NCBI RefSeq assembly: GCF_037392515.1 | Contig: NC_090285.1 | Location: forward strand, 6,885,501-6,949,500 | Direction of reading: 5' to 3' | DNA from: Haliotis asinina | Lineage: Eukaryota; Mollusca; Gastropoda; Lepetellida; Haliotidae | Length of the DNA: 64,000 nucleotides | In this document: positions 28,916 to 64,000 of the stretch, one piece after another | Layout: every line of letters begins with the position of its first letter | Position numbering within the stretch: position 1 is the stretch's first letter | Translations under genes and position numbers: made by a program | The notes under the pieces: model-generated | Told to the model about the DNA's origin: nothing | The model's database searches: none | The model's input: the letters and a program-made list of their open reading frames with translations, nothing else

Positions 28916-31900
28916 ATGGCTCAAGCAACGACGAGTAAGTTCGACTTCAAAATGGAAAAGAGACAACACTCGGGATCACTGAGCAGTCGTTCATCCGAGG
29001 ACTTTTCTGAGACTAGTTTTGATGGTGAAACGGAAAGCCTCATAGGTTCGGCGACCCACCAGTTAGTGTTATACGCTATGACGAAAGGACACACCATTCA
29101 TAGTGTAACACACATGCCCCCTCACCAGTTGTCGGAGTTTCTCAGAGATTTTTATGGTAAGGTCAGGACCAAGCTTGAGGAGGGGCCGGTCAGATCAACT
29201 GTCAGTTTGAAAGATATCAGGCTCGGTCTGCAAAAATATTTCATGAAGGAGACCGGCTTGGACATTGTCAAAGACAAAAGTTTTGAAAATGCCAATGCGT
29301 GTTATGAGATGGCAGTTCGAATGGGACCACGCAAGTGTCATAGACTTAGAATAGAAATGGATGATTTGAGGAAAATATATTTCAGTGATGCAATGAAAAC
29401 CGACAACCCAGAAACTCTTCAAAATAAGGTGTTTTTCGATGTGAATTTATACATTGTCAACAGAGGAAAAGATTGTATGAGGGCCATGACGAAAAATGAT
29501 TTTGTTGTGTCGACTGAAGTTGACGGAAGGAAAAGTGTTTGGTTAAAATACCACCCTAAGTTCAACATCAAGGAGATGGGTGGCTATGGAGATGTAGATC
29601 ATACTGGAACAAGGCTAGGGGAGAAGATGCTTGAGAGACCAGGTAAGTCACTAACATTTTCTTAATATTGATGTCATAAAAGTTTTATAAATCTTTTCAC
29701 CCACTGCAACAACTGAACCAGTGGGTGACTTGATCCCAGCCTACATACTATAATGTCATATGTAGAAATAATAATGATTAAGTGTGTATAACTGAGTGAT
29801 ATTGTGAAATAATCAAGAAATATAGTGTGACAGTGTTATTGAGAAAGAATTCCACCCACACTCCACACCTAGGACATGCTGTCTCTTAGTAATAACTAGG
29901 TTACACAGGTGGGTGTATTGAGTGAAGGTTGTACCGCCCTAATTATAATGCTGTTATGTGGTTGACAACAGAAATCATCAAATGTTATGACACTTTGATA
30001 AATTTTATGTGTTGTACAATGTGGATTCTAATTTCTAATTAGTATATACATAATTACATGTGATGGGAAAGAGTATTTGATTTGAAAGGCAGTCTTATTG
30101 ACCATGTATACATAACTTCAGTTTATATCAATATGATGTACGACTCTGTTATTGCTTAATTGGTGTGTAAATGATATAACTGTCTTGCAGGAGATCCTCG
30201 TTGCCCTGTAGCATCGTTCTTGAGGTATCTTACCCATCTCCATCCCATGACTGAAGCATTCTGGCAACGTCCCAAGCGGAGTGTATCTCAGTCTGATTAT
30301 GTATGGTTTGACAATACCCCACTGGGAAACTCCACGCTGAGTAAAATCATGCAGAGGATATCAATTTCAGCTGGAGTTAAGGAAAACTACACAAACCACT
30401 CGATTCGTCCATCGTACATTCCTCTTATTGAAACAATATGCACAGATGCTTTGAACATTGAGAGAACTGTGCGAGTGCCCAGTGTATTGTCACAGGAAGA
30501 TTCATTTGCCGATGATAATTCGCTGGGAGACAGTTCGTCGCTTGATTCTGAGTCCCCAGATGATGACCCAGTGGATGAGAGTGTTGTTGGTAAGCTTGCC
30601 CAAGATATTGTCATAATGGCTCAATGTTCCTTAAAGAAGGTCACATGCAATGCAAAACACAACTTTTGATGCCTTTTGATATGGACTTACAGAAACAAAT
30701 TATAAAAAAAATGCAAGTTCCAGTTATAAAGTTGATAGAAAAAACATGATGGAAAAAACTCAGTGAAATCAGAGTTCAAATGATTCACTAATTGCACCCC
30801 AGTGCTGGGGTCAAGAGCTGGTTTCAACACCTGTGCTGCCCTGTGCCCATAGCACGTGATCAGTGATTAGGTTTCGTTCAATCACTGACCACGTGCAGTT
30901 TGAACTTATCCAATCGTACACCTTAAACAAAATGTATTGATTTACAGCTCATGCACATGAGTTCTGTCCCTGACACATTATATAATTACACAGACCGGAG
31001 AGTGTGACACTTGTACACATGACATGTTCTTATGTCTGCGGGTTGCAAACAAACGGCATCCATTTTTCTCGGATGACTGGATTGGATGGACACTGGAGCA
31101 AACTCAGATGGTCAGTTCCAAGTCCTGCTTCTCACTTGGACGAATGACTGTTCCCAGCCACACAGTAGTTCACCATCTCAGTATTTGTTGATTGAATTGA
31201 ACGCAAGTGCGAAGAGCATGTATTTACCTAACCCAACATCTCTGTATACAATCTTTTTGGATAACAACTTCTTCACAAGCAAGAGTGACAATGGCTTAAA
31301 AATCCATACCAAAACATCTCATCATATACAGTGAAAGAAGTTGTTATTCATTGAGAATCTTACTTTCTTATTACCCACCTTACTTCTGAAATGCCAATCA
31401 AACAGATCGTCTCTATGTACATACAGTGAGCCCTTAGTGTATATGCAAATGAACCAGCCAATGGAAGATGTCGTTACACTTGCGCTCACACTCGTCTGCT
31501 CTGACTGTTTTCGGTTTCTCGGGTGCTTCATTTCGATTGAAGTAAAGCAAAGTACAAAAGCTTGCACTTTTGATTTGCGATTATGTGCTTCTAATTTTGT
31601 TTAGCTGCTTTTCACAACCAGCAATCTATATTATTTGTCATGAATAAGTGATAGTTTGCTTTAAATTATGTTTGGGTTTTTTTTTGTTGCATGTGACCTT
31701 TAACTACATGCCAGAAATGGAAATTAACCTGTCTAAGTTAGCACATTTCTGTCACAGGTAGATACTTTGCTGAAACTGCTGGTCAACAGACATGTATCTG
31801 TTACATTTTATTAAATCTCTCTACAGACCTGCTTCTGGAGTAATTGTCTTTTTGTTGCATTTTTTATATGAGACACTTTAATATATATTGCATATGACAT

Positions 31901-32086
31901 TTTGAACATTCTTAATTACTAACTTTATCACTTGGTATGGATATTTTATAGCCTGCCTCGAGAATCTGTTAGCATGTGATTGTCAAAATACAAATTACCC
32001 AGATGCAGATTTGTGATGTTTACATATCTTGCCAAAGAAGTGAGGTGTTTTTAAGGCAGCCCATTGGAATACTGTACGCCCTATTT

Positions 32087-32146
<60 letters not shown>

Positions 32147-34755
32147 CGATTAACTTTACAGCTTCTTCAGTTCCCGTCAGAAACCATCATTATTGCATTG
32201 AACACACTGTTAAAATATCTCACATCTTGTGAGAATAAGAATTTAGGAAAGTACCAATATTTACCAAAATAAGTTTGCGTGACATGGACACTTAGTTGGG
32301 ATTTCCAGATAAATCTGTGGTATTTGTCACATTTTGTGGGAGATGCTGACTGGGTTGTATTAAAAAACTGGGTTTTATTAAAAATGAACCAAGTTTCAAA
32401 GTGGTTGCATGACAAAAGCTCTTGGATGATTGTCACTGTTACAAAATGGTTACCATGTTTTTGATTGATGTTGTTATTATGTTGTTATTAATCAGCATGG
32501 TGGCCATTGTTCCAGGTTTGAGGTCGGCCAAGATGAAGGTTTTGGAGTTGATTCGTGGCCTACTCGTGAAGGACATCAAGAAATTTGCTGACTGGCTGAA
32601 AACTGTTCGGGTGGAATACCACCAAGGAGGTAGGCAGGATTTCTGTGTCATGTTAATAATATGACCAATGAGAAACATTGCATACCAGTTATATCGTGTA
32701 TGTAGGGCATATAAGAACTAAAGTGTTTTGAAATGCGAATGTCCAAGCTGGTATGAGATGTTATCTTTGATATGTGATATGTGTTTATCTTTTGTGAGTT
32801 CTAGATTAGAATAAGTCCCCAGCAACATATACTAATCCTAATAGGCTATCAGATGATTGGGTTGTCAGAGTCATTGGTTGTGTGCACGTCATCGTCCCCC
32901 AATCTTGTTGGTCGTTGTAGTCTCCCCTCTTGTGGTTCATTGTGGTCTCTCAATCTTGTGGATCATTGTTGTTAGTGTTTGGAATGGGAAACCAAATCCA
33001 CTATCAATTATTGGTTGACTTGTTGTGAACAATTACCGATAATCGAAACTTTTAAGTGTAGTCACCATTTTTCACCATTATTTTTTCTGATTAATTATTT
33101 TTCTAACTAATACTGAAATGCAATAAATGTAAAATGTGTTCACAGACAGGTTACAGTACTCAGTATTTATCATAGTGCTGAAACTGAAACTCTGACTTTT
33201 TCACTTGATAGTGATTTTGTATCCCTTTGTCAATTGATTTTTTAATTATTTTCAAACTTCGGAAAACACCGCTAATTGTAGTCCCCCAATCTCATAGGTT
33301 ATTTTGGTCCACCAATCTTGTGGATCATTGTAGTTCCCTGTCTTTTGGATCATTGTCCCCCAATCTTGTGGACCATTGCACCTCATCTTGTGGATCATTG
33401 TCCCTCAATTATGTGAATCATCCCCCAATGTTATGGATCATTGTTATGTCCAAATCGTGTAAAAATTTTGGTATGTCAGTCATGTGGATCATTGTTGTAT
33501 CCTAATCATGGAAATAATTGTTGTACCCTAATCTTGTGGATCATTGGAGTCCCCCAATCATGTGGATTGCTGTACCCCAATAACTAGATGCCATTATTTT
33601 GCAGACTATTTTCATATAGCTGGAATATGTGGTTATTGCCATGATTAAACCATAAAAAATAAGGATGTTGACTGCAGTTGAAAATTGAGACACTTATCTT
33701 AAGATCATTTTGCCTACTGATCATGAAATTGCTTGAAGCATCTCTGTACCAGTTTGTGATTTTGATTGTTTGTTTCAGAGCTGATTGTCTTGTGTAGCCC
33801 GGTCGACCAGGAAGATGTGGCAGTGGAAGGGATGAATGGTCAAGGGGGAGACAACTCTCAGAGCAAAGTCAGTGATCAAGAAATGACCTCAATAAAAGAG
33901 AAGTTCAAACAAAATGGACCCGGTAAATTCTCATCTGCCAGTTTGGATTCACCCATGCAGAAGAAAACTGAAAAATCAGCACGAAGCGACAAGCAAGACA
34001 GTTTATCATTTATGCAGGGAATTTCCATAAAGCAAGTAGAGTTTGACTCGGTTGGCGGAACCCACTGCTCTGCCAGTGATATCTCCCCGTTAAAGGTGAC
34101 CATTCCCTCAACAGACGCACTGCTTGTGTCTGGTTTGAGTGAGAACATGCAGCTGTTGCTACACAAGAAATCCAGCAAAGAGCATCAACCGGTCCAGGAA
34201 AAACTACCAGACAGAATATTCTACTCAGAGAATGACATGGATGTTGCTGAAATTGCTGCTCTACTAGGTGCCTGTGACAGTCTTAAAAAGAATCCTGAGA
34301 AATCTGAATCAACAGTGGCTGAGATCAGTAAGGCTCTGCCTCATGCCGGCACAAGAAGCCCGAACCTAAAAGCAGACTCGATGCCAGAGATGAGGAGCGG
34401 TGCAGTTAACATTCAGAGCACAACATCCTTTGGTGGAGAAAACAAGTTGATAACTATCGGCGACAATAAACAGTCATCATTGAAACCAACAAGTCCAGCG
34501 TTGAAGAGACAGGCACGGGTGGAATGTGCGGAGCCGGCTTGTGACGAGCCTCTGAAGAAAAGACTTTGTAGTAGTGCTAGTGTGCCTACAGGAGCAGACC
34601 ACGGAATGGCCTACCCCAACTCTACCAACATTCCGAAACCACCATTGCAGTTCAGACCAGCTTCGTTAGATTCGTCGCCACTTATGAAGAAAAAGAGAGT
34701 GCGCTTTGGCAGTGGAGTTCAGACGATAACTGTTAAAGCAGAACCGGTATCATGA
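28916..34755 (+). CDS. Gene A: Crypton-derived tyrosine-recombinase-like (DUF3504-type) protein with WLK domain and disordered tail
   Basis: Exons 28916-29642, 30191-30589, 32516-32629 and 33779-34755 encode 738 residues. All introns are phase 1, and the ATG has a good context (aagATGG). Residues about 45-320 form a Crypton-type recombinase-like domain: an N-terminal helical SAM-like part (HQLSEFLRDFYGKV), a first active-site Arg in VNRGKD (R183), GDPRCPVASFLRYL, FWQRP, and YTNHSIR with the H-x-x-R pair (H312, R315). No GHR box or SYN-type tyrosine follows, so it should not recombine DNA. An acidic Ser/Asp-rich linker follows, then a 38-residue exon with DIKKFADWLK. The last exon starts ELIVLCSP and is otherwise disordered. 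It ends with KKKRVRFG (basic cluster plus RVxF, the PP1-docking pattern) and ITVKAEPVS, which contains the SUMO-type psi-K-x-E. Related to QRICH1/ZMYM/KIAA1958, Crypton-derived host genes. A nuclear regulatory role is inference. Confidence 0.8.
30631..31703 (+). mobile_element. TTAA-flanked non-autonomous DNA transposon, copy in gene A intron
   Basis: Ends TTAAAGAAGGTCACATGC and TGCATGTGACCTTTAA. The inner sequence resembles the copy at 55201-55949, for example 'gattcactaa...cagtgctgggg...tggtttcaaca' and 'gtcatgaataagtgata'. About 1.07 kb, longer than its relatives by about 300 bp of internal sequence. Inserted 41 bp after the donor of exon 2, in sense orientation relative to gene A. TTAA target sites are typical of piggyBac-type elements, but no transposase is present. 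Confidence 0.7.
32085..32146. repeat. (ACT)n microsatellite
   Basis: About 20 uninterrupted ACT units in the intron between the second and third exons of gene A. The poly-Tyr open frame here is an artefact. Confidence 0.95.
32516..32629 (+). other. WLK-domain exon of gene A
   Basis: A phase 1-1 exon of 114 bp encoding a two-helix-like segment ending in DIKKFADWLKTVRV. It matches exons 53417-53566 in gene B (DLVAFDQWLKKMKI) and 62312-62443 in gene C (DLVTVVDWLKRIDV). Common pattern: A-K-x(3)-h-x(2)-h-h-x(4)-D-h-x(2)-h-x(2)-W-L-K. I do not recognise the domain. Confidence 0.7.
32893..33580. repeat. About 25-bp minisatellite (gtcccccaatcttgtggatcattgt), split in two blocks
   Basis: Blocks at about 32893-32970 and 33285-33580 share the unit; about 310 bp of unrelated AT-rich sequence separates them. 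It lies in the last intron of gene A. The open frame across the right block is only the repeat. Confidence 0.75.
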
Positions 34756-36796
34756 AAAAGGAGGCAACGTTTCTTGGGTTTTAATTCTCATATCACTCGC
34801 AAGTGATATTTTGCCTCACGGCAAGCCAGTTTTGCAGTTGTGCTGATACGCCAACGCAACCCTATGTATTGTAAGGGTTTGCAGGTGGAGATAAGCAGAG
34901 GGCGACAACTAAGCCCATTTGAGCTGTTACCGTGGAGATGAAAGAGGAGAATTGTGGGTAAAAGAGCCCATGCGTTCACAGGTGTCTTGTGTTCAGAAAG
35001 TCAGCTAGTTGACACAAAGATGACATGCAATTACATCCGGTGATTATGATGTTTAATATGTACATATGGGATATATCATAGAATGTTGTGATATAAGATT
35101 GTACATGAAGTCGCACCTTGATGAGTGCTTCTGTTCCATCGGTGGTGCATTAGCTACAGGTGGATTAATATGTGTGTTGTGTAGCCACCTAGTGGATGAT
35201 ACTAGCTTTCTTTGCCATACAGACACCAGGTATCTGAAATGGTACCAATATTTGTCCATTTTGACATTTTTTAATATTGCTAATTATACATAACATAACA
35301 GCAACAGAGTTAAGAAATGCACCTGTATAGTGGGTTATTTCTGAATGTTGTTCGTGAAAAAGGAGGTAATCCTTGGCACTGTCCATCCTGCACATAACAA
35401 TATTGTATGGATACAACAATTTGGTAACTGTGTTTATTTTTTGTTCCTATGATTTTTCTGTTGGTAATCCTGATGTGTGCTTGAGTGAGACCACAGGTTA
35501 GTGTGTATGATAAGATGGACTGGCAGAAAACTTGAGGGACATATCATATTTTGTTTGTTGTGGATAAAACAAACCAAAATTTATGTTTTGTTAACTCTGA
35601 TGTAAACATCATGTAAGTTATAATTACTTTGTTTGGTCTCAAGATATACTTTAGATGCTGTCATATATTGTTTTTAGTGGAGTTCGATGTTTGACATTTT
35701 ACTTGTTAATAGTATTATCCAAATTATCCATATTGACCTGCTTTTTAGAATTCTTAATACCAATACTTAATCTTTTAGCATGTTTAGTGCAGACTTAAGC
35801 CTTTGGTTACAGATTAGGTGGTCAGTTCACTATGAAACTAAATAATCTGCTAGCTCTGTCACATATTGTGTAAGGACAGGAATTTGAAAGTCTTCAGAAC
35901 GTGTTTGAAAGTGCTGTTGAAATATTTGAATTTGTTATTGTGATAACTAGTGTATTATTTATTAACGACCATTTGATTTAACATTTTTAAACCCTTTTGA
36001 ACAAGTTTGTCCTTTACCAGAATTAACAAGTAGACCAATACACATTAACAAGTAGACCAACCCAGTTGTATTTGTTGTGATGTGGCCATGCTCACTTCAA
36101 CACATACACGTCATGTTTTAGTACCTTTATGTAATTATGTGATCAGAAATTGAATTTAAAGTTTTTCCCTAGAAGAAAATGACAAGACAGTCTACTTTTT
36201 TTCTCATTGCCATATTTGGCACCTGATGATTGGCATCAGTGGATGCAGCTGTTGCTGTGGTGATGACAGTTTCAGGAAATGTTCTCGCATGCATTTAACA
36301 TACATAAATCAATGAACTAAAAAATCCTATTTATTGAAGACATGTGAGAATGAAGATGTAATGTAATCAGGCAGTACAGATAACATAAACCCACATTTTC
36401 TTTGCGTTATTTGACTACATACAGTACAACTTATCATTCTTTAGGTCTAGACTTTTGTTAATAGTTTAGTGATGTTTGTAAAGATGTTGCTCGAATGAAG
36501 TAATGCTGTACAAATTTGACACATTATCTAGTTGCTTGTTACATGGCACTGTATTTTATTGCAGTTATGTCACTGTTCAATACCAACCAAAGCCATAATA
36601 TCACCAGTTATTTGATTTCTAATACCACTCAAAGGAATTTATGGACCATCAGATGCTTTCATGTTGGACTGTTGTGGCAGGGTTGATAACAATATGACAG
36701 AATCAGGTGTTTCTAAACATTTCGTGAGTAGTATACGTATAGATCTGTCTGACTTAAGTGTGGCCTCACATGCCAAGCCTATGCATTATGTCGTTC

Positions 36797-36880
36797 TGGT
36801 TGGGTAGCTCAGAGATCTGTGTGTTTGCTTACCACACCATGAGTTCCAGTTTGGTTCCCATAACTGGTCAGTGTGGGGAA
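36797..36880 (+). mobile_element. tRNA-derived SINE relic
   Basis: 'gggtagctcagagatctgtgtgtttgcttaccac' resembles a D-arm/A-box region, and 'ccagtttggttcccataactgg' a degraded B-box. Too diverged for a functional tRNA. Confidence 0.4.
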
Positions 36881-37300
36881 CATGGTAATGCAAGTTCTGA
36901 ACCTCTGTGATAACAATGTGTTTAGTTTATCTTTAGTGCAATTGAACGTTGCTGTGTTAACCCTGAGGTAAAGTTTTGATATTTTCTTTTTGGAAACAAA
37001 TTGCCTGTGTATTTTGACCACTCTTCACGGGTTATACTTACAGAATAACAAGAAAACAAAAATATTGTATTAAATGTAGGTATCACACATTTGTTCTCGT
37101 GGAGGGGTATGGTTTAAGGAGGAGAAATAGCCACTTAAGTACTAATATATCCTGACACTATACTTCATCCCTACTTGTCAATAGAAGGGTCAAAATGGGT
37201 CTGGGTCTGGCTAGGTCTAGGTTGTAGTGACCTTAGCGATCTTACAGGTATTTTTAGTGTTGCATTATTACATGGCCAGCAGGAGTGGAACACTAATATA

Positions 37301-37655
37301 CAGTGGAAGCTGTCTAAACTGGCACTCATTGGGACTGAAGAATTAATCCGGTTTAGACAATATGCCGGATTGTAGAGCTGGTGATAAATGTACAAGCCAC
37401 AATGGGACTGAGATTCTATGCCAGCGTTGACAACTTGCCGGATTGGACAGATGCTGGTTCTGGCAGAGTCCGCTGTAGCTTTGTTGGGGTCTATGGCTGA
37501 ATGCCTGCCGTTGTGGTCTGTGTCCATTCCACAATGTGGTCTTAGTGCTGTGGCATCTGTAGGTCATATATATGACAGGCTTTCTGTAAGTCTACCGGAT
37601 GCCCATTCGCCATGTTTGTTTGATGCTATCACAGCAGTATGGAATAGAGGGACTA
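37301..37655. mobile_element. Possible pogo/Tigger-type non-autonomous element
   Basis: TA then CAGTGGAAGCTGTCTAAACT at the left, matching the left end of the better element at 50501. Internal 'ccggtttagacaatatgccgg' and 'ttgccggattggaca' repeat the motif. The right end 'ggaatagagggacta' + TA is only a weak inverted match. Confidence 0.4.
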
Positions 37656-39085: not shown

Positions 39086-39091
39086 AATAAA
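39086..39091 (+). terminator. Candidate polyadenylation signal of gene A
   Basis: AATAAA followed by a GT/T-rich element; the assignment to gene A rests on strand and order only. Confidence 0.3.
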
Positions 39092-40414: not shown

Positions 40415-40415
<1 letters not shown>

Positions 40416-40458
<43 letters not shown>

Positions 40459-49584: not shown

Positions 49585-52500
49585 TCAAACTGGTTCAGGT
49601 TTGGGAAAGACCGGTCCTGAACCGGGTTCTGGTATAGGAGCTGAATGCCCATTGGTGATGCTGCTTGTAGGCTGGTGATACATGGACCGTGACAAGTACT
49701 GAGAGAAGTCTGCCTTGGCTGATGGTCGAAGGGTTTGCTGCAGGACTGTCTTGACTATGGAAGGTTCAGATCTGTGTGAGAGCGTGGAGTGGTGGGAGGA
49801 GTTGGCTGGGCGGCTGCAGTTACTGGACACAACGGTTCCATACCCTGAACTCAACTGTTTTAAGTAACTTGATCCTCCCCTGGCTGTGCTGCTGTGGGTA
49901 TAGAGTCCGTCTCTTTTTGCCACACCTGGTGAAAGACGTGAATATTTCGTTGTACTGCTTTCTGATGTAGCGTTGGGGATGATATGAATAGGATACACTG
50001 ACTTAGCTATCCCAGATGGAGTGCTGGGTTTTGTGGGTGGCAGTTTGTCTTGATTCTTGTTCTGGGTTGCACCATCATCTGGTATGTCTGTGACTGGAGG
50101 TGCTTTGGAAGTGTGGGCGGTGACAGTGACTGGTCCCCCTCCCAGAAGAGCCTGTGGGGTGAGGGAGATGTTGAGGGTGATATTGGTGGACTCTTGTAGA
50201 CCCTCTAACTTGGTCTTGTCAGGGCTGAGGTCAATGGCATCAGAATCGTGACTTCTCTTCCGCGACAGCAGTTGACTAACACTCTGCATCCCTCGTCCAT
50301 CTTCTCGAAAGACTATCTCACCTGTAAGTACAAATCATTTATTGATGCAACTTATATACTGAGGTAATACCGAGGTAATACTGAGGTAATACCGAGGTAA
50401 TACCGAGGTAATGCTGAGGTAATAAGGTAATACCGAGGTAATACTGAGGTAATAAGGTAATACCGAGGTAATACTGAGGTAAAAGAACTGTGTTCCAATA
50501 CAGTGGAAGCTCTCAAAAACCAACAGCCCTCCAATCTGGCATGCTCTCAATATCTGAACTACAATTTGGTCACGAGAGAAGCTAGTTAATTAATGAACAT
50601 TTATATGCTTTCTGATCTGGTGTCAGTTAATTCCATATTTTGGCACAACAAAGACTGTCCAATTGACTGTTTGTACTGTAACTGACCATCTTGAAACTGG
50701 TATCTTGGGTCTCCTGTTCAATGGCTGAAAGTGCCTAATAAATTGGGTATGGATATGTATTAGGCTGAAGTAGGCAAGGTATAATGGTGGGTGAAACATG
50801 TCACATGCATTAAAAATTAATTGTTGTCTCATAATTTGGCAGTCGGTCACCTGCATATGCTACTGACATGTGGAAGATCATTCTCATTTTGAAAAGGGAA
50901 AAGTTCTCTAAATTGGGACATCCTCTATACTTGCATTTTGAGCTGGTCCCAACGAATGCCTGCTCAGAAGGATTCTACTGTATATTGTAATACTGGTACT
51001 GTATACCAAGAAATTTTCAAGGTACCAAAATTTCAAGGTTTGAGACCCCCATAGCTTTCGAGGTGATTTAAATTTTAAACTGCGAGGTTTGGGGACACAA
51101 AGTTTCTAAATATTTTATCAAATTTAATTTTGAGGTTAGAGAGAAACAGGCCAGAAATATCTCTTGCTGAACAAATACTCACTGACTAGCCAGTGATAAC
51201 TGCTGTCAGCCTGGTATACCAGTCCATGGCAGCAATACTAATAATGAAAACAAACGTTTGATCCTTTGTCGTGATAAATGACCCATGAAACACTCTGTCG
51301 GCAGAGTTCAAACATGATGCCAATATTTCTCATATGATACTGTTTTCTTAACAACTATCGCCGATACAGTCCGTTTGGTAAGAGACTGACATCAAGTGTA
51401 TTGACAGTTAGTTTGACTTCACATGTTAGACACTCATTGAATTACCTACTTTTTTTGTAATGCATGTTATTCTGGACCAATAAGTACAATTAAATTGGCC
51501 TGACAGCGCATTTCTGTTGATTTTGTTTCTTACAGACCGTTAAGGGTCATTGAAAGTTCAGATTAGTTGTAAACAGGCATTACAGAGTTAATGTCAGAAA
51601 GTCATTGGCTGCCAGCAGTTGAAATTCTTATTGACAGGAAATCTAACCCAAATGTTTATAGTTAGGAAAACTTCATGGATACAGTATTTTGGAGGATGCT
51701 TTACTAACTTCGAAAATTAGATACCTAAAACATTTACCGGTATACAGCATCTGTATCGTAATCTTATGTCAGCAAAAGCTTTTAGCACTGATTGTACATG
51801 CAGATCTGATACTATGCTTAATACATTTTTACTACATCTGGAACATCAGTTTGGAAGAGAAAAGTCATTTGCGAATGAACTTCCCCAAAAACGTTTGGTG
51901 AAATGAAACAAATAATTTAACTTTTTATAAATGTTTTACAAAATAAACTGGAACACTCAAAAGACATTGCAATACATTATGTTTGAAAACCAAACAGCCC
52001 TAGTATAGATGATATATATAGAGAGAATCTCACCCAAGTGTCTACTGATATCACTTGTATCAACAGAAAATTGATAAAGTTACAAATATCATTAGACACA
52101 AGGGTGAGATTCTATGTATCATAAAAAATCACTGTTCAATAGTTTACAATGAAAAATGTACATCTCTCTACCCTGTACTACCATAAGCATAGCATCATGA
52201 CATCAAGTTCATGACGGCATAGCATTGTCAGGACACTGCACAAAATCTACCATCAAAATGAGATATCATATGATCTCACATGAGCAATGTCTCCTGTGGA
52301 ACACAGCTTTAGATGTTAAATACATATATGAGCCACACAAATTCCATCAGGTATGATTGCTATACATAACGTAAATGCAGTATTGTGAAAATAATTAATG
52401 TGCAGTGCTCCAGGATTATTGTGAGTGTTGCCAACTGGCACACAAACTACTAAAATGTGTCAATGCAGTTGAGGATTTTGCCATTCATGGTAATCATGGT

Positions 52501-55500
52501 ACAGAAAACCAGTGGATAATATAAATACAGTCAGACCTCATATATGCGAACTTAAGATATTCGAATACCTCGGTTTCCGAACATTCTTCACAAAAAACAA
52601 ATTTTTCTAGTGACAATTTACCTTGTATATCCGAATGTTTGGTTTCCGTATCCAAACGGTCAATTTTGCTAACGAAACATCAACATGTGTACACATTTGC
52701 CTCGTATATCCGAACACCAAAGCTGACATCGGCCAGATGTTGGATGTTTACCGCTTATTAACAGTGATCACTGCTTTTACCTTTGTTGTCAGCGAGACAT
52801 CAAAACACGAAGTCTATCAGGTCTACCGCTTGCCAATTCATTGTGTGTCTAGCTAGTTAATTTATCATAATGAAGACATGTATTTATCACCGGGTGTGTA
52901 GGTTAATTAGAGAGGAAACAATTGAAGTTTGACACTGAGGTGACACTGAGTCGATTTGTTGATTTTGTAAGCATAAATAATGACGGCTGGGGGTGTCAGT
53001 CGTTATGCATTTGAGCAAGATGGCTAGCACACCTGATAAACAAAAACAATCTGCCATTAGACATGTTAGAGCCGGGGAAAAGATTTTACATTCAATAAAG
53101 AATGTAAATGCTTGAATGTTGTTTTGTTTTCACGTGTAGCCGACCGCCTAGGTCCTGATTCAGACATCCGAATGATTCGTATAGCCGAACAATTCAATAA
53201 AAACCCAAAGTGTTCAGATAAACGAGGTCTGACTGTAGTCATGCAAGTGGGTACGCTCTTAGCATTGATAAAAAGTGCCATTGCATATTTTTTAGTGTGA
53301 ATGGGGCAATGGTGCTGCCTGGCTCAAACACTGAATGTATCAACTGAATGTATCAACTGAACGTCACGTAACCTGTAAAGGGTACTCTTGTCTGACAACA
53401 TGAAAGGAAACTGTACCTGTTGCAGTGTCCCGACCAATCTTCATCTTCTTTAACCACTGGTCAAATGCTACAAGATCCAAAATGTCCATCCTTTGCAAAA
53501 TGCCAGACAGCTGATGTTTAGCTGTTGCTAAATCAATGTACTCTGTATGCTCAGGATGGTGAGGTTCTGGAAGAAATATAAACATATCCAGTGTTGGAAG
53601 TAAATGTAAAACATATCCTTTTCAGGCTAATGTCAAAGCAGAGTTTTAGATGGTCCCTGCATACAATGCTCTAGCAACAAAGCAAGAGTTACGCAAGCCA
53701 TATAAAAAAAACCCCCAACAAACTTGACCAGTTGGATATTCTGTTTATGATCATGACAGGTTTCTCACATGATGAGACATTTTTAAACTCCTCATCCTTG
53801 TCATGTGTTTCCAATATGTATACAGTTCAGATATTTTAATGGAAAATATCCTAACCTCTTAGAATCAGTTACTAGAGTACTGTTGGAAATGGAAAGAAGC
53901 CATGTTTTCCAGCTGTTACTTTGTATCCCTCAAATGTACATAACTACAAATGGGACATGTCGAAATAACTCACTTTGGCGTAACTGGGCATTCAGTGGGA
54001 TGTGTAAGAGGATGTCCAGAAAAGCATAAATCAGGCAAAAGTCAGGAAATATATGAATATGAAATATGAATATGAAAACAATAGATCAGACTAGAGATGG
54101 CAATTACATCGCTCAGTCATAACAACGGAGAGGTGACTGAGTCACCTGGCATGAAATGTATGCACTACCTACATGCACAAAGGGTCATCTCATAGATATT
54201 TTTGTTTTATATGTGTTGAATATGCAACATCTATTGATTAACATCTTACGTGTCTATCTCTTATGAAGTTTATGTTACGATATGTAAAAGAGTAAGATAA
54301 TTGATACCTGATACCCATAGAAAAGCACTGTATCAAAATATATAGGTGGCATGACCAATCGAAGATCGATAGGACTGAATATTGCTATTTATGTGAGGAC
54401 ATACAGTGTACTTCTCTATTTTAATTCCCCTGTGGGACTATCATATCTCAGCTGATATCTCTATCACCAAGCCCGATCCAGCCATCATATGGTACACATG
54501 CCATGGTTTTGCTTTTGAGATGACCCATTCTACCTGGTTCTTTTTATGATAGTGACTATGTGAGACTCCATGGTAGCTATATCCTTAACAGTTTCAGCAT
54601 GAAAGAGTTATTATTTTTTATATCAGCTATCGTCTTTTTCAAAAAGACATTTAACAGGTGCCCTTTGTAATACAACATTATTGCACACTAATTTACATAA
54701 AGTCATGGTCTGTTCCAAAAAAGTTGGACTTATAAAAATCTATATTGCTCATTTCTGCACCAATCTCACCTCAGTAAAGTCCTTTTTTAACATTTCAAAT
54801 CTCACTACCACTGGAACTGTACTTAGGCCAAACCTATTTCAAAAGATTTTTCGGATTTTTGCACTGTCGCATATCAACTACATAAATTGTAGAGATAAGG
54901 TGAAAGAAAAAACAGTTTTTCTTCTATTTCTGACAGTACTAAATGATTAACATGCTAATAGTAATACAGTGCACTCTATCTAATTTGTACAGACTTAAGG
55001 GCTGATTAAAAAGTCTTAATTAGACAGGCTCGGATCGTAATTTCAGTCCAGTTTACACAGCAATCCAAGAAGGAGAGTCCAAGTTGGGCACAGTGCAATG
55101 TAGTAGTATGATAAATTAGAAGTGTATCTGTTTTGTTAAAAATTCTTACTAGTGTCACTTCATTAGTGCCTAATACTATATACAACAATAACATCAGCGC
55201 TTAAAGGCCACATGTAATGTAAAAGACAACACTGCAGAATCTGATATCTTTCAGTAAGCATTTACTGAAACAAATCATCAAAAATGCCAATTCAACCAAT
55301 AAAGTTGAAAAAAAAAAGTGATGAATGATTCACTAACTTTCCCCAAGTGCTGGGGGGGGGAAGTGGTTTCAACAGCTGTGCTCATAACGGATGCGCAGCA
55401 AATAGGTTCGCGGAGCTTGAAACAATATGACTGCTCAGACTTTGAGGTCGTGAGCTATGGTCTAATCTTGGTTGTATACATAAACAAGTAAATAATCAAC

Positions 55501-57388
55501 TTGTCACATAAAAAAAAACATGTTGATTGTGATAAGCAGATTCGGTCACTGAGAAAACTCAAAATCTGGTTAATTGACACCTATATGTCTGTCTGCCTGT
55601 TTGCTAATGACAATATGCAATGCACAACTTCAATCATTAACCACATGCAATTTTAAATAAACACTATCGGGCTTATATGCCATAAACAAAGAGCCGGATA
55701 AGCGTATTGGCAAATGAACCAGTGGCCAATGAAAAGGCTTTGTGACACTTGTGTGCACATCCACTGGCTTTGACTAGGTTTCAGCTGCTTTGTTTCAAGG
55801 GAGGTACACCCTAGTACAAAAGACTGCACTATACGTTAATAATTTTGTTTCTTCATCTCTACTTAATCAGCAATGCATTTTACATATCATGAATAAGTGA
55901 TAACTGTGTTTTAATAATGTTTGACTTTTTCATTGCATGTAACCTTTAAACAACCTGACTGAAAAAACTGACAAATTTATACTTACCATTACCAAAGTTG
56001 TCATCCGTAGAGTAGCCTGACACAGTTCCATGGCAGTTGTCAGGTTGATCAGCAACGTCATCCACTACCTCTTCATTAAATGAGAGGGACTGATGGGATA
56101 GGCTATCACTAGAGTCCAGTTCTGAATCTGGCTGTGCAATCACATGGTATGCAAGAGCATCAGACATCTTACTGTCTTGTCGACCATAACTGTCATTCTG
56201 ACTTGTGTTCAATTCTCCCTCGTCATTATCAACTGATGAGGCATTTGTTGAGTCACAGTTTGAGTCTCCATCACCAGTGACAGCAGCAGTACCCTCTAAT
56301 GGGGTCACTTGGGCAGTCATTCCTGTAAGGTCCCGAATCTGTCTCACCATCTCATTAAGTTTGTTCATACCCAGAGCACAAGGGCGATACCAAGACTGAG
56401 CTGGGGCTGGCTGATTAACATTTACACCTAGGTAGAATGGAGAGTATCTGTGATTGGCAGCAATAGGTCGTTTTTCTGCATATAGTTTGTATAAAGCCAC
56501 AGGATCTTGTTCTGGTATCTCTGGCTTGCTCCATATCATCTGCCGGGATTGACGCAAGTGACTGTTTGCTGTTCTGTGCAACATTTGTGGAGAAAACGCA
56601 AGATATTCTCTCCCAGACTCCTCTTCTACTCCTAACATTATGTCTCCCCACAACAATTTCTTGTGTTCAGTTGCTTTTCTCATTTTCAAATTCACAACAA
56701 ACACAAAGCACAGAGAAAACAGCACAGACACAGGAGTGTAAGGTCCAAATTCTTGAGATTTGCATAACTGTGACAGTCTCTGTTCCATGACATGTGATGT
56801 TGATGATATCTGTGACTTCACACCTTTACCCATTTGTTTCAACATCTGCTGCTTCAGCTTCAATGCAGCTCTTGTCTTGGCGAAGTGAATATCTCTTGTC
56901 AATGATGTTGGGTAGCATTTTAGTTTCAGGTATCTCTCAATACTAGCCAGCATTGCCCTTAAACTGCACGGTTCATATTCAGCTCCGTCAAACTTTCTTA
57001 CAACCATGAAGAAGGAGGACAGGTATTTATCAAGTTCAATTGGTGGGATGCACTCTGGTGGGCGCTTTTCATTCAAAGATTTTAAGTAGCTAACAAGAAT
57101 TTTCATATCTGCACCAGTTTTCCTGTTTGTATTTTTATTTTCCATGAGAAAATTAGACTCCTCAGGTGTTGGTATGCGTAACATGCTTGAATGCATGGTA
57201 TCAGATCCACCGTTTCCCGAACTCGAGCCGGGTACCATGTAAATATCATCGCGATCTTCGTTATCAACATCGCCGTCTTCCACGTTCTCTTCGCTGACTC
57301 CAGTGTCATGGTGCGCGTCTGAGTCCGCGACCGGCGACTTCTTCTCATTATGAGGTGATTCTTCACTTTCCTTGCTGGTAGGGTCCAT
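49585..57388 (-). CDS. Gene B: Crypton-derived DUF3504-type protein with WLK domain and disordered tail
   Basis: Exons 55987-57388, 53417-53566 and 49585-50321 (minus) encode 762 residues; both introns are phase 1. The N-terminus is acidic and disordered (1-90). Residues about 95-360 form a DUF3504/QRICH1-ZMYM-like domain: LDKYLSSFFMVVRKFDGAEY, the EYEPCSLRAMLASIERYL block, KGV, MRKATEHKKLLWGDI (first active-site Arg about 237), SPFYLGVN and WYRPCALGMNKL. It stops after RQIRDLTGM. The H-x-x-R, GHR and Tyr boxes are missing and an acidic Ser/Asn-rich segment replaces them, so recombinase activity is not expected. The second exon carries DLVAFDQWLKKMKI. The last exon starts GEIVFREDG, has LLSRKRS (possible nuclear signal), and ends GPVFPKPEPV, close to the gene A ending. 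Closest human relatives by pattern are QRICH1 and KIAA1958. It is tail-to-tail with gene A and 3.4 kb upstream of the 3' end of gene C. Confidence 0.8.
50357..50482. repeat. 11-bp minisatellite (aataccgaggt)
   Basis: About 11 units of AATACTGAGGT/AATACCGAGGT in gene B intron 2, starting 36 bp from the 3' splice site of the last exon. It gives a repetitive Tyr/Leu-rich artefact frame. Confidence 0.85.
50501..50980. mobile_element. pogo/Tigger-type non-autonomous element
   Basis: TA + CAGTGGAAGCTCTC at the left and GGATTCTACTG + TA at the right: imperfect inverted ends, TA target duplications, about 480 bp. It lies in gene B intron 2. Confidence 0.5.
52528..53235 (+). mobile_element. Tigger/pogo-type element, internally deleted (708 bp)
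   Basis: Left end CAGTCAGACCTCATATATGC and right end ATAAACGAGGTCTGACTG are inverted repeats flanked by TA, as in pogo/Tigger elements. The motif 'tatccgaac' recurs inside both ends. A short frame near 53020-53115 (MASTPDKQKQS...GEKILHS) looks like the start of a transposase and ends after about 30 codons. Non-autonomous. Lies in gene B intron 2. Confidence 0.8.
53417..53566 (-). other. WLK-domain exon of gene B
   Basis: 150 bp, phase 1-1, with acceptor ttatatttcttccag and donor ACAG|GTACAG. Encodes IDLATAKHQLSGILQRMD followed by ILDLVAFDQWLKKMKI. Same exon position and phase as in genes A and C. Confidence 0.7.
55201..55949 (+). mobile_element. TTAA-flanked non-autonomous DNA transposon, copy in gene B intron 1
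   Basis: TTAA + AGGCCACATGTAATG at the left and TGCATGTAACCT + TTAA at the right. Its near edge is 37 bp from the donor at 55987/55986. It is antisense relative to gene B, whereas the gene A copy is sense, so the two intronic insertions are independent events. Confidence 0.8.
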
Positions 57389-59429
57389 TTCTTAAACATG
57401 AAAACACAACATCACCACTAAAGTCATAATCAACACAATCTATTCAATGATTGACAGCCATGATACCGGAAGCCACCTAGTGTCGGTAAACATTGAAAGA
57501 GAGACAACTCTACAGCTGAAGGAGTTTGCTTACCGATAAAAAATGTGTTGCTTTAGTTCCAAAATGTGTTGTTCTAACACAAACACCGTTGCGAGGATCA
57601 AATATACTGGGAAGAAACGATGGATATTACTGAGCCTGTTATGATAAAGTGGTCTCGTGTCGACCAGCCTCAGAGAGAGTATCAGTCGAATACTGCCTTA
57701 TCGGAATGTTCCACGATATATGAGAACAAGAAGTTTGATATACACCTGTTACTAAAGTTAACCAACAGCCGCAAAGCGAATTATCGGGAGTGTGATACGA
57801 CTAGTTATCTACCGAATTTAGTTATTTCTGGAAACGACCGTGAGAGTTAAATATCCCTCTCCATATGCTCCCGTTCTTGTCACATCTAGGTTACTTCTCG
57901 CCACTTCCACGTATTGTTTGGAACGAAGCTGCTTTAATCAGTAACAGATATCCGTGAGCATCTTAGGCCTACTAGTGTTGAAAATACTAGCCATAACACA
58001 TCTTACACATTTATTCAATGGAATCCTACGATGTGAAATTTGATAGATCTGTCTTTGTTTAGAAGCGTTCTTATATTTCACCGAATTCACGGTATGATAA
58101 CTGAAAATTAGTCAGGACAGAATTAACTGTAAATTATATTATCTTTGAAAAGCAAGATTTCTGAGACTTTTTTAGTTTATATGCGTTTTACCAAGTTCAA
58201 TGTGCAATAACTGGTAATACGTCAAGATTGATTAAAACTGTTAACTAAAACACTTTTATTACACATGAATTTACTGGTTTTTAGCATTGAAGGGCAGGTC
58301 TGAAAATGAAGTTTGCATGAATGTATTTTTGTGTTCAACTAGTTTGTTTCTGCTGGATCATCCTTTAGCCTATAATATCTTGCCTACGTGCACATGTTAT
58401 CTAACTGTAACACGCTTTTCGTTTTTTCCGTTTCTTGACATTGGCCGGCTCAAGATATTACTTACATATGTTGAGTTCTCGTCCTTGACTCCACCTGCGG
58501 GGCGAATGGTCATCTATATCACGTCTGCATCACTACAAGCAGTAGTCCAATCCTACTGGTCTTAGTTCCGTAAAAGGGATGGAGTCAAGCCAACACAGGT
58601 GAAACGCTGTACTTTCTCAAACGGGTTGTTTTGGAATGATATAAGAAAGCAAGATTACAAGTTATGAGATCTTAATTTAGGGGAGGATAAGAGAACATTT
58701 TATAAATATATACGGTGCAAATTGAAGGAAGTGAAAGTGTATGAAACGTAAACACCCAACGAAAGTAATGGTTTAAGATTCTCGATCTTGTACATCAACA
58801 TCAGTAAATGATTTACATTTACCTCGGGAGTTAGGATCCAGGCTGCTGAACACAATATTTACCTGATCTTGTTGACTGTAATGAGCACAAATAACATTCG
58901 CCAAACTGATGATAAAAATATCAGCAGTTCACAGGCAATATACAATGTTATCCGTTAATTTAACGAACAGTCTTTAAATTTTTTGGGTGAAAATCACAGA
59001 AGTGTAAAATGCTCGTCATTAGGGTGATAGTGATTGTGTAATACCAGCTTTGTGTCATCTGGTTTGGTAAAGGAAGATATTTTAAAGCTACCCATCATCA
59101 CAGGTGTGCCGATGTATAATTGTCCAGATTGGGATTATTGTGTTCAGTAAAATAAACAGGCCGCAAACAGCCCGAGATACACGGGCCAACGTCACACCGA
59201 CAAAATACGTGCATCAGCTGACGAGATAAGCAGACAGTACACATGCGCAGATGGACTGAATGACCAACGTTTCCCTGTGATCAAATGGGGTCTGGTCTAG
59301 CTTCAAAGGGAATGCATTCTTCGTCGTCTGTATTTGAACATCCTGACGTTTCATTAGCATATTGTTTAAAATGATAAACAACTGCTACGTTTGTGTTTAA
59401 AAACCGCACCTCGTAATGTTTGGTCGTGG

Positions 59430-59545
59430 CCTGTAAATAATCGAGCCTGAACCAGACAAGCAGTAACTAGCACCGTAAGCATCGATCGACGCAATTGGAG
59501 GACATGCATCAATCAAGGTGCCTCATCACCTGAAACCGTTATTTG
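59430..59545 (+). mobile_element. Fragment of the second mollusc SINE-like repeat
   Basis: 'gtaaataatcgagcctgaaccagacaa' and 'gcatcgatcgacgcaattgg' match the copy at 39490-39722. Confidence 0.6.
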
Positions 59546-59601
59546 CGTGGCTTCCTGAAGACCAGTTGTATCATCCATTATCATTCTGTTGTTACTATCA
59601 G

Positions 59602-59745
59602 GGCGGTTGGGTAGCCTTGTGGTTAAACCGTTCGCTCGTCATGTCGATTCCTCGCAGTGGTACGATGATTGAAGGTCATATCTGGTGACCCGACCGATCT
59701 TGCTGGAATGTTGCTGAAGAGTCGTAAAAGTATACTCACTCACCC
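59602..59745 (-). mobile_element. tRNA-headed SINE copy, minus orientation
   Basis: 'ggttgggtagccttgtggttaaaccgttcgctcgtcatg' through 'cttgctggaatgttgctgaagagtcgtaaaa' and (CTCA)n; part of the B-box region is rearranged. Confidence 0.7.
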
Positions 59746-60071
59746 TCTTGTAATAATTACCACACGCAACTTTCTGCGGCCGGCAATTACGCAGTTCTGG
59801 ATCAGATAATACAGTGACTGACATTATGAGCACTGTATGGCGTAATTTAATACGACGATGTGCAGAGATCCAAGTCGCCAAGCCCCGCCATCCACTTCGA
59901 TTAACAGCCTCTTACCATCAGCACACGTTGCTGTGAATCGATGTTCTTACTCAAAATCCCCTGTATTCTTCCTCATTTTCCTTTCTTAATGGTGAGAAGA
60001 AAGAAACAGTTAATTGAAACCAACAGTTCCATAATGTATTAATGACAGGGAGTTAATATAACAAAAATGAT

Positions 60072-60077
60072 TTTATT
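60072..60077 (-). terminator. Candidate polyadenylation signal of gene C
   Basis: AATAAA on the minus strand about 670 nt after the gene C stop, followed by 'tcatttttgttatatt'. It gives a 3' UTR of ordinary length. Confidence 0.4.
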
Positions 60078-60746
60078 TCAAAATGCAATAAAACAACTTT
60101 GCAGTACCACCAACAGGGAAGCCCGAGGGTAGAACCACAATAAACTAACATGCAAACCAGAAAGGGAGACAACCGCAGGCGAAAAGTAATAATCAAAAAC
60201 GCATCTGAAGTGATCATATCAGATTAATATTGTATATGTTCTGTATCACTTAATCTTTTCGATAGTGTATTCCATGTTTAATTCAGATAAAATATTTGAT
60301 GAAGTGATAATGTTTTCTAAAGAGAAACACTGGTAACCTGAATACCTGAATATTTCAGGGATGCAGTATTTGTCATAAGTAGATCAAATATTGGACCCGT
60401 GGTGTAGATAGCAGATTATGCCTAACTTACTTCCGGGGGCAAACTATAATTACAAATCAAATTGAGGAGTTTTTTTTGTAATAGAGGAGCAACAGACAGA
60501 CACAATTTTCATTTGGATACCATTCAAATGAAGCTTGCATTCTCATCTCAAGACATAGTTTTAATGCACATTTGGAACCAGTCAGGAAGGTAAATATTGA
60601 AGCAATTTCAACAAGTGTAGAGTGCATATGTTTGAAGAATAGGCCAGCCGTATGCCATGGTGTGGAATTCTAGATGGAGTGAGCATATGGTCCGACAAGT
60701 CCTGTCTGCTAGCTATATTTCATCATGTTGAAAATGGGTGAATTTT

Positions 60747-63700
60747 CTACAAAATCTTCCACACTTTACTTTCACCGGTGACATTAGAAATTTTAAGTTT
60801 CTTTTGAGGTGATGTTGTGGATGCGGTGTTGTCACTAGCATCTATGTTGACCTGCAGCTGACCACCATACAGGACGCAGTTTCCAACTTGGGCAACTTGA
60901 CTGTATGACGTTGGGGTAGTACTGTCGTTTGCCGTCTGCTGCTGTGTACAATGACCCAGGGAGTGACCTGGTGTTATTGCCGTGACAGATGGTCTTGGAG
61001 CTATGGCAAGCTGCTTGCCAATCCTGGTACTGCTCCCAGACCCTGCTTGGTATTTCAAATGGTCCTCGTTAGTGGGTTGAGCTGTAACAGAGGCATTTAC
61101 CAAAGTTGCAGTATGTCTTGGCAGCGAGGGCTCCTGTGATGCAAGACTGTTGGCAGCCTGGCTCTGAGATGTGAATGGAAATTGGGGAAAGAAGATTGCT
61201 GCCGGACGAGGTGCAGTAGGAGCAGCAGTGTTGATAGCGTTGTTCATGTAGTACTGGGACAGTGAGAGTGGAGATGGTAGTATGTAAGGCTGGATGGCAG
61301 ACTGGGATGGCTGTGGTGGATGTACTTGTCGTGGAGTGAACTTTCGGGCTCTCAGCGGCTGTTCCATGATCCTGTATGAGTTTTCCCGACAAAACACAAT
61401 CCCTGGAATAAGAAATGAAGGATATTGAAGAATAGCAAACGCCCCCTAGCCAAATGGGGACACTGTCCAGTGACTGTCAGGATCAGGGAACCAATGGCCG
61501 CTTCATACATGGTAATGTAACATCCTGTCGTTTTTACAAATGGAGGGCCAAGGTGAAAATAATTACCTCAAACTACTAAACACTCCCCCCCTCCCCCCCC
61601 CCCCCCCCAACCGGTAGTATAACATTTATTAGGTAATATATACATGTGTTTACAGAGCAGTCAGTGGATGCTTTGCATTTGTAAAATTCGGCTTGATGTT
61701 TCCTATTTTCTTATCACCTCCCATGCATGCCTGAGTTTAGTTTTATGCAGCTTTTAGCAATGTTGCAGAGATATCAGGGTGAGGGACATCACTTTTCATG
61801 CATGTATCAGAAAAGGTTCAAAGGCAAGTTTGTCATCCCTTCACACTTGTGTGCTTTGCAATTCATATAGTTCTTGAATTGCAAGTGTTTGAATTGACAG
61901 TTTGCACTGTAGAAACAGGTTTTAGAGTTTTATTTCACTGACCAACACTGGATGGTCCAGTGATTCGTATCAACCCTGACTGCAAGAATTCCATAACCCC
62001 ATATAACTTACGAATTGCACATATGCACATAGTATGGTCGAGGAGGAAGGGGAAATGAACAGTGGCAGCAAACTGGTCAACTGGAATAACTTTGCATCCG
62101 ATGGCTGAAGGATGGTAGCAGGTGAATGCATAACACACTTTATTGTGTGAAAAATACACACAAACGGAACAGTGGCAGCAAATTGGTCAACAGGAAACAT
62201 TTTGTATCCCATGGCTGAAGGGTGGTAGCAGGTGAACGCATAACACACTTTAATGTGTGAAAACTACACACAAACGGGATCCATTATTCTGGGAGGTTGA
62301 CCATGACTTACCAGAAGTGTCTTTGAGAACATCAATCCGCTTGAGCCAGTCAACAACAGTGACGAGGTCGGAGTACACCAGGCGCTGGAAAACCCGCTTT
62401 ATCTTGGCTTTTGCTGTATTCACATCTATGGGATCAGGGCCTCCTGCAAATGTGAAGGTGCACCAATAAGTGAATACACCAACTGGAAGCTCGCGGTAAC
62501 TAGCATATGATGTACCATGATGGTACTCCCGAGTAGTAAAATAAATACTTCCAGAGTCGTGCAAAAACTGTTGGACACTGGGCGTAATGTTAATAGACTT
62601 ACAGGTTAATTTATTGTAGCATTGCTAATCTTCATGAGTTTCATTTTCGTAAGATCCAAGTCAAATTTTCCACATTTGTGAGGAATAATCTTACCTACCA
62701 TCACAAAATTTCTGTTTTTTTTCTTTTGCTTATTTATCGAACGTCAACAATTCAATCAACATATGTAATTGTACAGTGCCGTGAAGTCCTTAATATAACG
62801 ACCGATGTGATTGTGTTAAATAGTGGTTGGAAAGTTGTACTGAAATTGTATGCGCAGAACAGAGATGATTTAAAAATTTGCCCATCAAATTTTACAAAAT
62901 GTATTGTCAACTCATTTCATGAAAATTATTTAAATAATATGTAAGTCTTTGGAAATTACGTATTATTTACCAAGAATATGTTGACCTTCCCTGTCTTGTT
63001 TCGTCTGTGATTTCCGTTTGACATATGGCCTGAAAGCCCCCCTCTCCTCTTCAGTGTTGCACCCGACTGACTTGGTGGAGTCAGCGGGGAGTACGGTTGG
63101 GGGTAGTGGTCCATCAGCTGGCACAGTGCCTGGTCTTTCTGTACATGACGAATTATATGAAACCAGAGCTTGACTCTTTTGTACAGACATGACCTGATAC
63201 CTATGTTGGAAAACAAGTTCCTCCAGCGACCAGGGTGCCAGTTTCTTCATTGAAACATTCGTGTACTTCACATCAAGTTCAGCTAGTTTGGTGATCTTTC
63301 CCATCATCTGAGAAGTAAAGTTTCTGCCAATCCGTTCTGGGTGATACCACGCACTGGTTTTGTCCGGAATGGACAGTCTTGGGCGCTGGAATAGGTACTG
63401 GCAGTTAGGGTCGATTTTCGTTAGCAGCTTCTCTAGGGATAAAATTGGGCACATCTCATCACCTTTCTTCTCGTACATCCGACACCTGTCGTGTTCCTCG
63501 TCTGTTGATGCTCTCGTTGCATAACGACGTCCGTCGCTGTCGATGTCAAAGATGAAGTCTGTCGTCTTGGTGTCCCGTTGCACTTTTGACCGTTTCCTGG
63601 AGAAGTACACGCTGATTTCAAACCACACTTTAAGTAGGAGGGTGAGTGGGGTTTTGGGGCTTAATGCATCACTATTGTATATTTTCCTCAGATCCTCTGT

Positions 63701-64000
63701 TGTCATGCGGGGGCTTGTTCGTTCTGGGTTTTCCCTGGCGGCACTTTTAACAACACGTTTGAACACAACATTGGAATACCTGAATGCCCTTTCTTCAATA
63801 ATGTCCATCTTTCTGGGCGGTACCATGTTTGCGAAATACCGATTTAGCCCGTACCTTATTGCGACGATGGTATTTCTGGAATATCGTTGACCGGTTTTAC
63901 TCCGGACTTCTACGTAAAATCGACACAGAATCTGATCCAGCGCGGCAGGTTTTATGGTTTTTAGATCGACGTCAATGTTGTTTTTCTGACACCAGTCAAG
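60747..64000 (-). CDS. Gene C: Crypton-derived tyrosine-recombinase-like protein with WLK domain (5' end outside window)
   Basis: Exons 62971 to beyond 64000, 62312-62443 and 60747-61402 (minus); the 605 residues visible stay in frame to the window edge and both introns are phase 1. The first exon encodes most of a Crypton-type recombinase-like domain: LDQILCRFYVEVRSKTGQRY, the RYGLNRYF helix, MTTEDLRKIYNSD, a first active-site Arg region FSRKRSKVQRD, EMCPILSLEKLL, and YLFQRP. YTNVSMK follows, where His and Arg of the H-x-x-R pair are replaced. QHR and SYN lie further on, matching the family's GHR and catalytic-Tyr positions. The middle exon has DLVTVVDWLKRIDV. The last exon starts GIVFCREN, is Gln/Ser/Pro/Thr-rich, and has SPQKKLKIS, a possible nuclear signal. 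The domain is closer to gene A than to gene B (shared DLRKIY.SDA). Gene C lies head-to-tail with gene B. Confidence 0.78.
61585..61610. repeat. Poly-C tract
   Basis: An almost pure run of C in gene C intron 2; lengths of such tracts are often misassembled. Confidence 0.9.
61733..61795 (+). mobile_element. 5' fragment of the tRNA-headed SINE
   Basis: 'tagttttatgcagcttttagcaatgttgcagagatatcagggtgagggacatca'; the second half is absent. Confidence 0.55.
62057..62278. repeat. Two-copy tandem duplication, 110-bp unit
   Basis: Copies at 62057-62166 and 62167-62278 are about 90% alike by eye. Each carries 'gtggcagcaaa.tggtcaac.gga' and the small palindrome-like 'cacactttattgtgtg'. It lies in gene C intron 2, starting within 40 bp of the donor. 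Confidence 0.85.
62312..62443 (-). other. WLK-domain exon of gene C
   Basis: 132 bp, phase 1-1, acceptor gaaggttcacatttgcag-like (ending 62444), donor TTCTG|GTAAGT. Encodes NTAKAKIKRVFQRLV and DLVTVVDWLKRIDVLK, aligned with the exons in genes A and B. Confidence 0.7.

Follow-up and report, generated by a model that had tools for sequence, protein, structure and literature searches.

Crypton-derived tyrosine recombinases (YRs) have been taken into host service four times independently in animals, all of these events being ancient, and the resulting DUF3504 domains have been proposed to act as DNA- or protein-binding regulators, it being stated there that the domain had no reported function at the time (PMC3212892). 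KIAA1958 is described as one gene with two isoforms in which different exons give two unlike Crypton-derived YR domains (26% identical), while isoform b of KCTD1 received a new N-terminal part when a Crypton YR was inserted upstream of an existing gene; WOC-like fragments are reported from two molluscs, invertebrates are said to show no sign of more than one WOC family, and neither a gene cluster nor an exon of the type considered here is described in the passages concerned (PMC3212892). A 64,000-nucleotide stretch of the genome of the abalone Haliotis asinina (assembly GCF_037392515.1, contig NC_090285.1, forward-strand positions 6,885,501 to 6,949,500; the window, to which positions below refer unless another place is named) carries three neighbouring genes, A, B and C, with a common plan: a YR domain of the DUF3504 type, an acidic or mixed linker, a short exon with a D..WLK motif (the WLK exon) and a polar-rich last exon. 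On balance, the locus is best read as a cluster of three host genes in which one WLK scaffold carries dead YR domains from two Crypton lineages.

The nearest kin of the three YR domains are the Cryptons of the same genome, divided here into type 1 (CryptonA-like) and type 2, names introduced for this analysis; unlike these elements, none of the three genes has a complete catalytic tetrad, and all contain introns. KIAA1958, compared by its published description only, is similar in that a single gene context came to carry two unlike YR domains of Crypton origin, but it is a single gene with two isoforms, whereas A, B and C are separate neighbours sharing the WLK exon. KCTD1 isoform b resembles the route proposed below in that the YR is added upstream; its 3' part, however, is a BTB domain, for which A, B and C have no Pfam match at E ≤ 1. 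QRICH1, like WOC and ZMYM2-4, resembles the three genes in the loss of the YR catalytic site, and B's recombinase, which lies on the type-2 side, matches QRICH1 by sequence in the PDB (E = 4e-4); in contrast, QRICH1 places its YR last, after its N-terminal domain, while the YR comes first in A, B and C, and the WLK exon is not similar to the QRICH1 N-terminus. WOC and ZMYM2-4 are set apart by domain only, their MYM zinc fingers having no Pfam match in A, B or C at E ≤ 1 (C's full first exon included). Work on 'host-transposase fusion' has reportedly been carried out in vertebrates. The original prediction knew of no description of this three-part design or of a local cluster of it, and none was found in searches of one open-access library. 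If the reading is true, it would show recombinase exons being captured or exchanged repeatedly at one place, in a genome still rich in relatives of both source lineages, and the capture steps would become testable by comparing related species.

The gene models were predicted from open reading frames and splice sites, with GT and AG at the junctions and joined frames that stay open, bearing out the claim that three genes lie within about 35 kb. Gene A (+ strand, 28916-34755, 738 aa, four exons) begins with a methionine in exon 1 (28916..29642), which encodes the N-terminal part of a type-1 recombinase domain and ends in phase 1; exon 2 (30191..30589), phase 1 on both sides, adds the C-terminal part, in which TNHSIR is kept and both GH and the catalytic tyrosine are missing, together with an acidic linker. 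Its WLK exon follows at 32516..32629, and the last exon (33779..34755) opens with ELIVL and continues into a polar tail. Gene B (- strand, 57388-49585, 762 aa, three exons) has an acidic N-terminus, a type-2 (QRICH1-side) recombinase domain ending before box II and a linker in exon 1 (55987..57388), a WLK exon at 53417..53566 and a last exon (49585..50321) that opens with GEIVF. Gene C, also on the - strand and partial at its 5' end, contributes 605 aa and three exons inside the window: exon 1 (62971..64000), a degenerate type-1 recombinase domain ending in phase 1, runs past base 64000 within a 460-codon open frame that has a methionine (locus L003), and is followed by the WLK exon (62312..62443) and a last exon (60747..61402) with a GIVF start and a polar tail. 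All introns next to the WLK exons are in phase 1, making this exon, of 114 (A), 150 (B) and 132 (C) bases or 38-50 codons, symmetric 1-1 in each gene, and the last exons of all three begin with IV[FL]. The single exon plan claimed earlier thus stands for exon order and the WLK phases but not throughout, as A, unlike B and C, has one more phase-1 intron within its recombinase, which spreads the YR over two exons.

The coding signal was set against 60 first-order Markov copies of positions 28901-64000, in which the longest open stretches had a mean of 146 codons and a maximum of 253. Four frames are longer than this maximum, namely those containing exon 1 of A (256), the tail of A (329), exon 1 of B (481) and exon 1 of C (345 in the window), and the tail frames of B (249) and C (232) are not. 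For codon scores, with a training set of seven further long frames that included six DUF3504 genes and with null regions that overlapped the background set, eight of ten exons scored above all 260 non-exon open stretches, the WLK exon of B being exceeded by eight and the last exon of C by two of these. The predicted frame was also the best of six in eight exons, the exceptions being the last exons of B and C.

With a Pfam cut-off of 29.7 bits, the DUF3504 domain is recognized in A (39.4 bits) and B (63.9 bits), while C scores below it (19.3 bits, 20.2 for the whole exon) and is placed in the group through the trees and its alignment with A, whose Smith-Waterman score of 274 is reached by none of 1000 shuffles. 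The score between B and C is 108 (0 of 1000) and that between A and B is 49 (41 of 1000). Catalysis by YRs requires the R-H-R-Y tetrad. In alignment with same-genome relatives, A keeps the first arginine and HxxR and has lost GH and the tyrosine, B keeps only the first arginine, and in C a lysine replaces the first arginine and the remainder is gone; as none of the three keeps the full tetrad, none should recombine DNA or be an active Crypton. The gene models, the DUF3504 matches, this loss and the WLK homology described below together uphold the earlier view of domesticated Crypton-type recombinase genes joined to a common WLK exon. Among the genome matches scored, no close copies of the three recombinases were found, the best others being about 30-36% identical over the main length, and viral contigs held no confirmed relatives of the first exons of B and A. 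An AlphaFold2 model of B's recombinase (mean predicted local distance difference test score, pLDDT, 35) was set aside, and matches of B to PRDM9 among PDB sequences were dismissed as repeats in which no stretch passed alone.

The 1.14 Gb host genome holds at least 152 DUF3504 matches (best 150 of 771 candidates scored), some with stops, and the kinship of the YR domains was followed in trees of A, B, C and 29 of 57 other DUF3504 loci that searches with B and C had drawn from it (L011-L069 less the window's own L040 and L057, with L027 and L066 being one place). Rows were picked from the longer open pieces; the other 28 loci, set aside because they were broken, short or redundant, include some with open pieces of 245-320 codons (L011, L021, L023, L033, L050). 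Tree 1 has 33 rows with a human QRICH1 stretch, tree 2 has 32 rows with QRICH1 left out, and tree 3, from an L-INS-i alignment with 80% column filling, has 26 rows with 23 loci. In all three, a split with 100/100 support sets A and C, together with CryptonA-like elements, against B, which lies with dispersed elements and a gene array, and B groups with L012, L013 and L015 (in tree 3 with L013 and L015 only) at 96/92, 94/91 and 95/90, these loci being 95-97% identical to one another and located at distant places in the genome. Approximately unbiased (AU) tests reject a clade of A, B and C (log-likelihood difference 112.6, p-AU 2e-110; in the other alignment 103.2 and 2.5e-5), of B and C (86.4, 1.6e-5) and of A and B (97.1, 3.4e-51), whereas a clade of A and C is not rejected (5.7, 0.22; in the other alignment 2.5 and 0.16), and these two may be true duplicates. 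Genome lists thresholded at E ≤ 0.001 follow the same division: B's exon 1 has 91 matches (best 91 of 311 candidates scored) with neither A nor C among them, C has 108 (best 118 of 236 scored) including A and not B, and A has 29 (80 of 80 scored), with C first after A itself and B absent. The description of A and C as alike and B as more QRICH1-like is borne out as two deep YR lineages, A and C against B; its QRICH1 part holds weakly, as human QRICH1 is placed on B's side at 49/23 with a very long branch.

Other DUF3504 loci of this genome may be noted here. L045, L047, L048 and L049, widely separated in the genome, are four Crypton-like open frames, each 378-379 codons long, that share 98.2-98.9% DNA identity, which suggests recent Crypton activity; the one scanned, L045, is above cut-off for DUF3504 and Phage_integrase. 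The gene array (L028, L034, L036, L037, L038, L039) lies at G000:C15:44.16-44.50 Mb, with further places at C15:35.25-35.36 Mb, C6:49.62 Mb and C7:44.72 Mb, and its members have a strongly conserved common N-terminal domain (VEVSGYVCVEIDN..KERYVLSELLQS) with no Pfam match in L028 and L036, the two scanned. This domain has 25 genome matches, 21 of them at E < 1e-10, of which 19 are on C15 and none has a stop, and the six array frames read stop at about one point, ahead of YR box II.

The WLK exons are the part that ties the three genes together. Their Smith-Waterman scores are 79 for B and C and 54 for A and C, each reached by none of 3000 shuffles, and 46 for A and B, reached by one of 3000, while leave-one-out profiles within the window recover the exon of C with E = 3.4e-7, that of B with 4.1e-6 and that of A with 0.013, each ahead of all unrelated frames. 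Homology is therefore solid for B and C and moderate for A, for which, with a profile match of this strength, the order and phase of the exons supply part of the case for membership. In searches of the whole genome at E ≤ 10, B's WLK exon matches only itself and C's, C's matches only itself and B's (E about 0.4 each), and A's matches nothing but itself; since A's query misses B and C, such searches would miss more diverged copies. No Pfam match is found for the exon, and the best among PDB sequences is a designed barrel at E = 0.16. Modelled alone with AlphaFold2 from the three-row alignment, the exon, represented by that of B, is predicted to form a two-helix hairpin (helices at 12-25 and 28-40 of 49 residues) with mean pLDDT 69.5 and a predicted template modelling score of 0.33, the block means of pLDDT reaching 77-81 in residues 11-40. 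A resemblance to a displaced QRICH1 N-terminal domain, noticed by eye, was rejected, its scores being reached by 869, 176 and 255 of 3000 shuffles (profile P 0.23), as was kinship with the N-terminal domain shared by the array genes on C15 (P 0.32, from shallow profiles of three and six rows). Nor was a WLK exon accepted in the 3 kb that follow L042, the recombinase nearest to A by path, where the best score was 5.7 bits. Downstream of L042, L070 (G000:C7:25158981-25161980) contains a 625-codon frame with C2H2-like cysteine-histidine pairs by eye and no Pfam match at E ≤ 0.01, which may be a gene in its own right or another fusion.

The last exons are far less alike. Serine, threonine, proline, glutamine and asparagine make up 34-45% of the tails, and of the basic and SUMO-like (small ubiquitin-like modifier) motifs ascribed to them earlier, a short basic run is present in each, with more than one in A, but the SUMO consensus [VILMF]Kx[ED] occurs only in A, at two sites. 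At E ≤ 1 the tails of A and C each occur once in the genome, and that of B finds itself and one weak match (E 0.48). Near its end, C's tail carries the motif LYGGQLQVNI (60843..60872, - strand), and the pattern [ILV]YGG.[FLIV].[IV]N[IV], written after C and L033 had been seen, occurs among 11,672 six-frame pieces in C's tail (L002 and L008 mark the same spot) and otherwise only at L011, L025, L026 and L033, four Crypton loci of the B side; when C's tail was shuffled 200,000 times, it never arose. A basic run follows the motif in L026 and L033, the open piece stopping earlier in L011 and L025. In the trees L025 falls on the side of B; L011, L026 and L033 lie outside the trees and are given the type-2 label on the ground that they were retrieved with the query from B, which matches them better than the one from C. 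C's tail aligns with that of L033 at a score of 50, reached by 19 of 2000 shuffles, and with that of L011 at 38 (226 of 2000), while its scores against two type-1 tails are reached by 1354 and 1376 of 2000. At the level of the motif only, C may be suggested to be a further chimera, a type-1 recombinase with a type-2-like tail end. Separately, type-2 Cryptons have a C-terminal piece (IYGG.F.INI..KRRR) that is itself a dispersed repeat, scored at no fewer than 150 places at E ≤ 10.

As B's YR belongs to the other lineage and yet B shares its WLK exon strongly with C, the recombinase and the scaffold of WLK exon and tail appear to differ in history in these two genes, and a mosaic origin of A, B and C is probable. 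One possibility is that a single scaffold took up recombinase exons, by capture or replacement; the other is that the symmetric WLK exon passed from one domesticated gene to another. The likeness of the residues that follow the second intron tips the balance towards capture or replacement, though not decisively. In such a history, the scaffold, a symmetric WLK exon with a last exon opening in IV[FL], would have been copied locally and its recombinase exon gained or replaced at least twice, each time by an intronless Crypton inserting upstream so that, through a phase-1 donor, the YR came to be spliced as the 5' exon. The likeliest role of the products is that of catalytically dead nuclear regulators binding DNA or proteins, in which the dead YR would contact DNA or partner proteins, the WLK hairpin would mediate docking or dimerisation and basic signals would lie in the polar tail, a functional reading offered tentatively. 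It is more speculative, and somewhat doubtful, that the one locus has been a recipient scaffold into which modules of different Crypton lineages were repeatedly spliced or swapped, leaving chimeras such as C, with products that may restrain the source Cryptons.

Several observations weigh against this account. Splicing of the three genes is predicted from sequence, and the recombinases of B and C are, like all DUF3504 domains, still recognisably homologous, so that the mosaic case comes to rest on relative kinship in trees, which have long branches and one model class; the accompanying genome lists of B and C cover the best 91 of 311 and the best 118 of 236 candidates. A's WLK exon is weak when taken alone, in profile match and genome search alike, and beyond their first residues the last exons do not align, their scores being reached by 952, 637 and 354 of 1000 shuffles. 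For the tail of C, the motif was defined post hoc, and a type-2 tail used as genome query does not have C's tail among its matches (best 150 of 193 candidates scored).

The nearest competitor is shuffling of the WLK exon, in which two neighbours, one of the A/C type and one of the B type, were domesticated separately and one then received a copy of the exon from the other, which may have brought the beginning of the last exon along. Lengths divisible by three with phase 1 on both sides make it a classic shufflable unit, and the tails are otherwise unrelated; however, the G-x-IV[FL] residues after the second intron are also alike by eye, suggesting that the downstream exon travelled with it, and we regard this history as rather improbable. 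The local duplication proposed in the original prediction, of one domesticated gene, here twice, with a fast-diverging recombinase, would explain the same locus, exon order and phases, the inseparability of A and C in the AU tests and the homology of all three YR domains at some depth. It fails for B, for which it is strongly disfavoured, as B joins dispersed elements, its scored list lacks A and C, and every clade uniting it with A, C or both is rejected; moreover, long branches would tend to draw A, B and C together rather than apart, leaving duplication as a very improbable account of the whole cluster.

A different kind of explanation concerns function, in that A, B and C could be trans-acting brakes on living Cryptons, their dead YR subunits occupying Crypton sites or poisoning recombinase multimers. 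Possible targets of both lineages exist in the four near-identical Crypton-like frames and in the type-2 tail present in at least 150 places, but these four frames do not all keep every tetrad residue, and recognition of the same sites is doubtful given that identity to the closest of the genome matches scored for A, B and C is no more than about 30-36%; such a role is unlikely. Least probable is that the genes are decaying transposon relics whose frames are open by chance, which the many broken DUF3504 copies in the genome and the chance-sized tail frames of B and C would allow, since this would have to accommodate seven predicted introns, joined open frames of 605-762 codons, coding-like codon usage and tails that are near-unique in the genome. 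The capture or exchange of recombinase exons on one scaffold remains the history preferred for the cluster.

Elsewhere in the window, a single 551-codon frame with ankyrin repeats is present at 22138-23790 (- strand). Two exons at 3526-3918 and 8160-8606 (+ strand) have fibronectin type III domains above cut-off, and a frame at 16790-17218 (- strand) carries HEAT repeats scoring slightly above cut-off.

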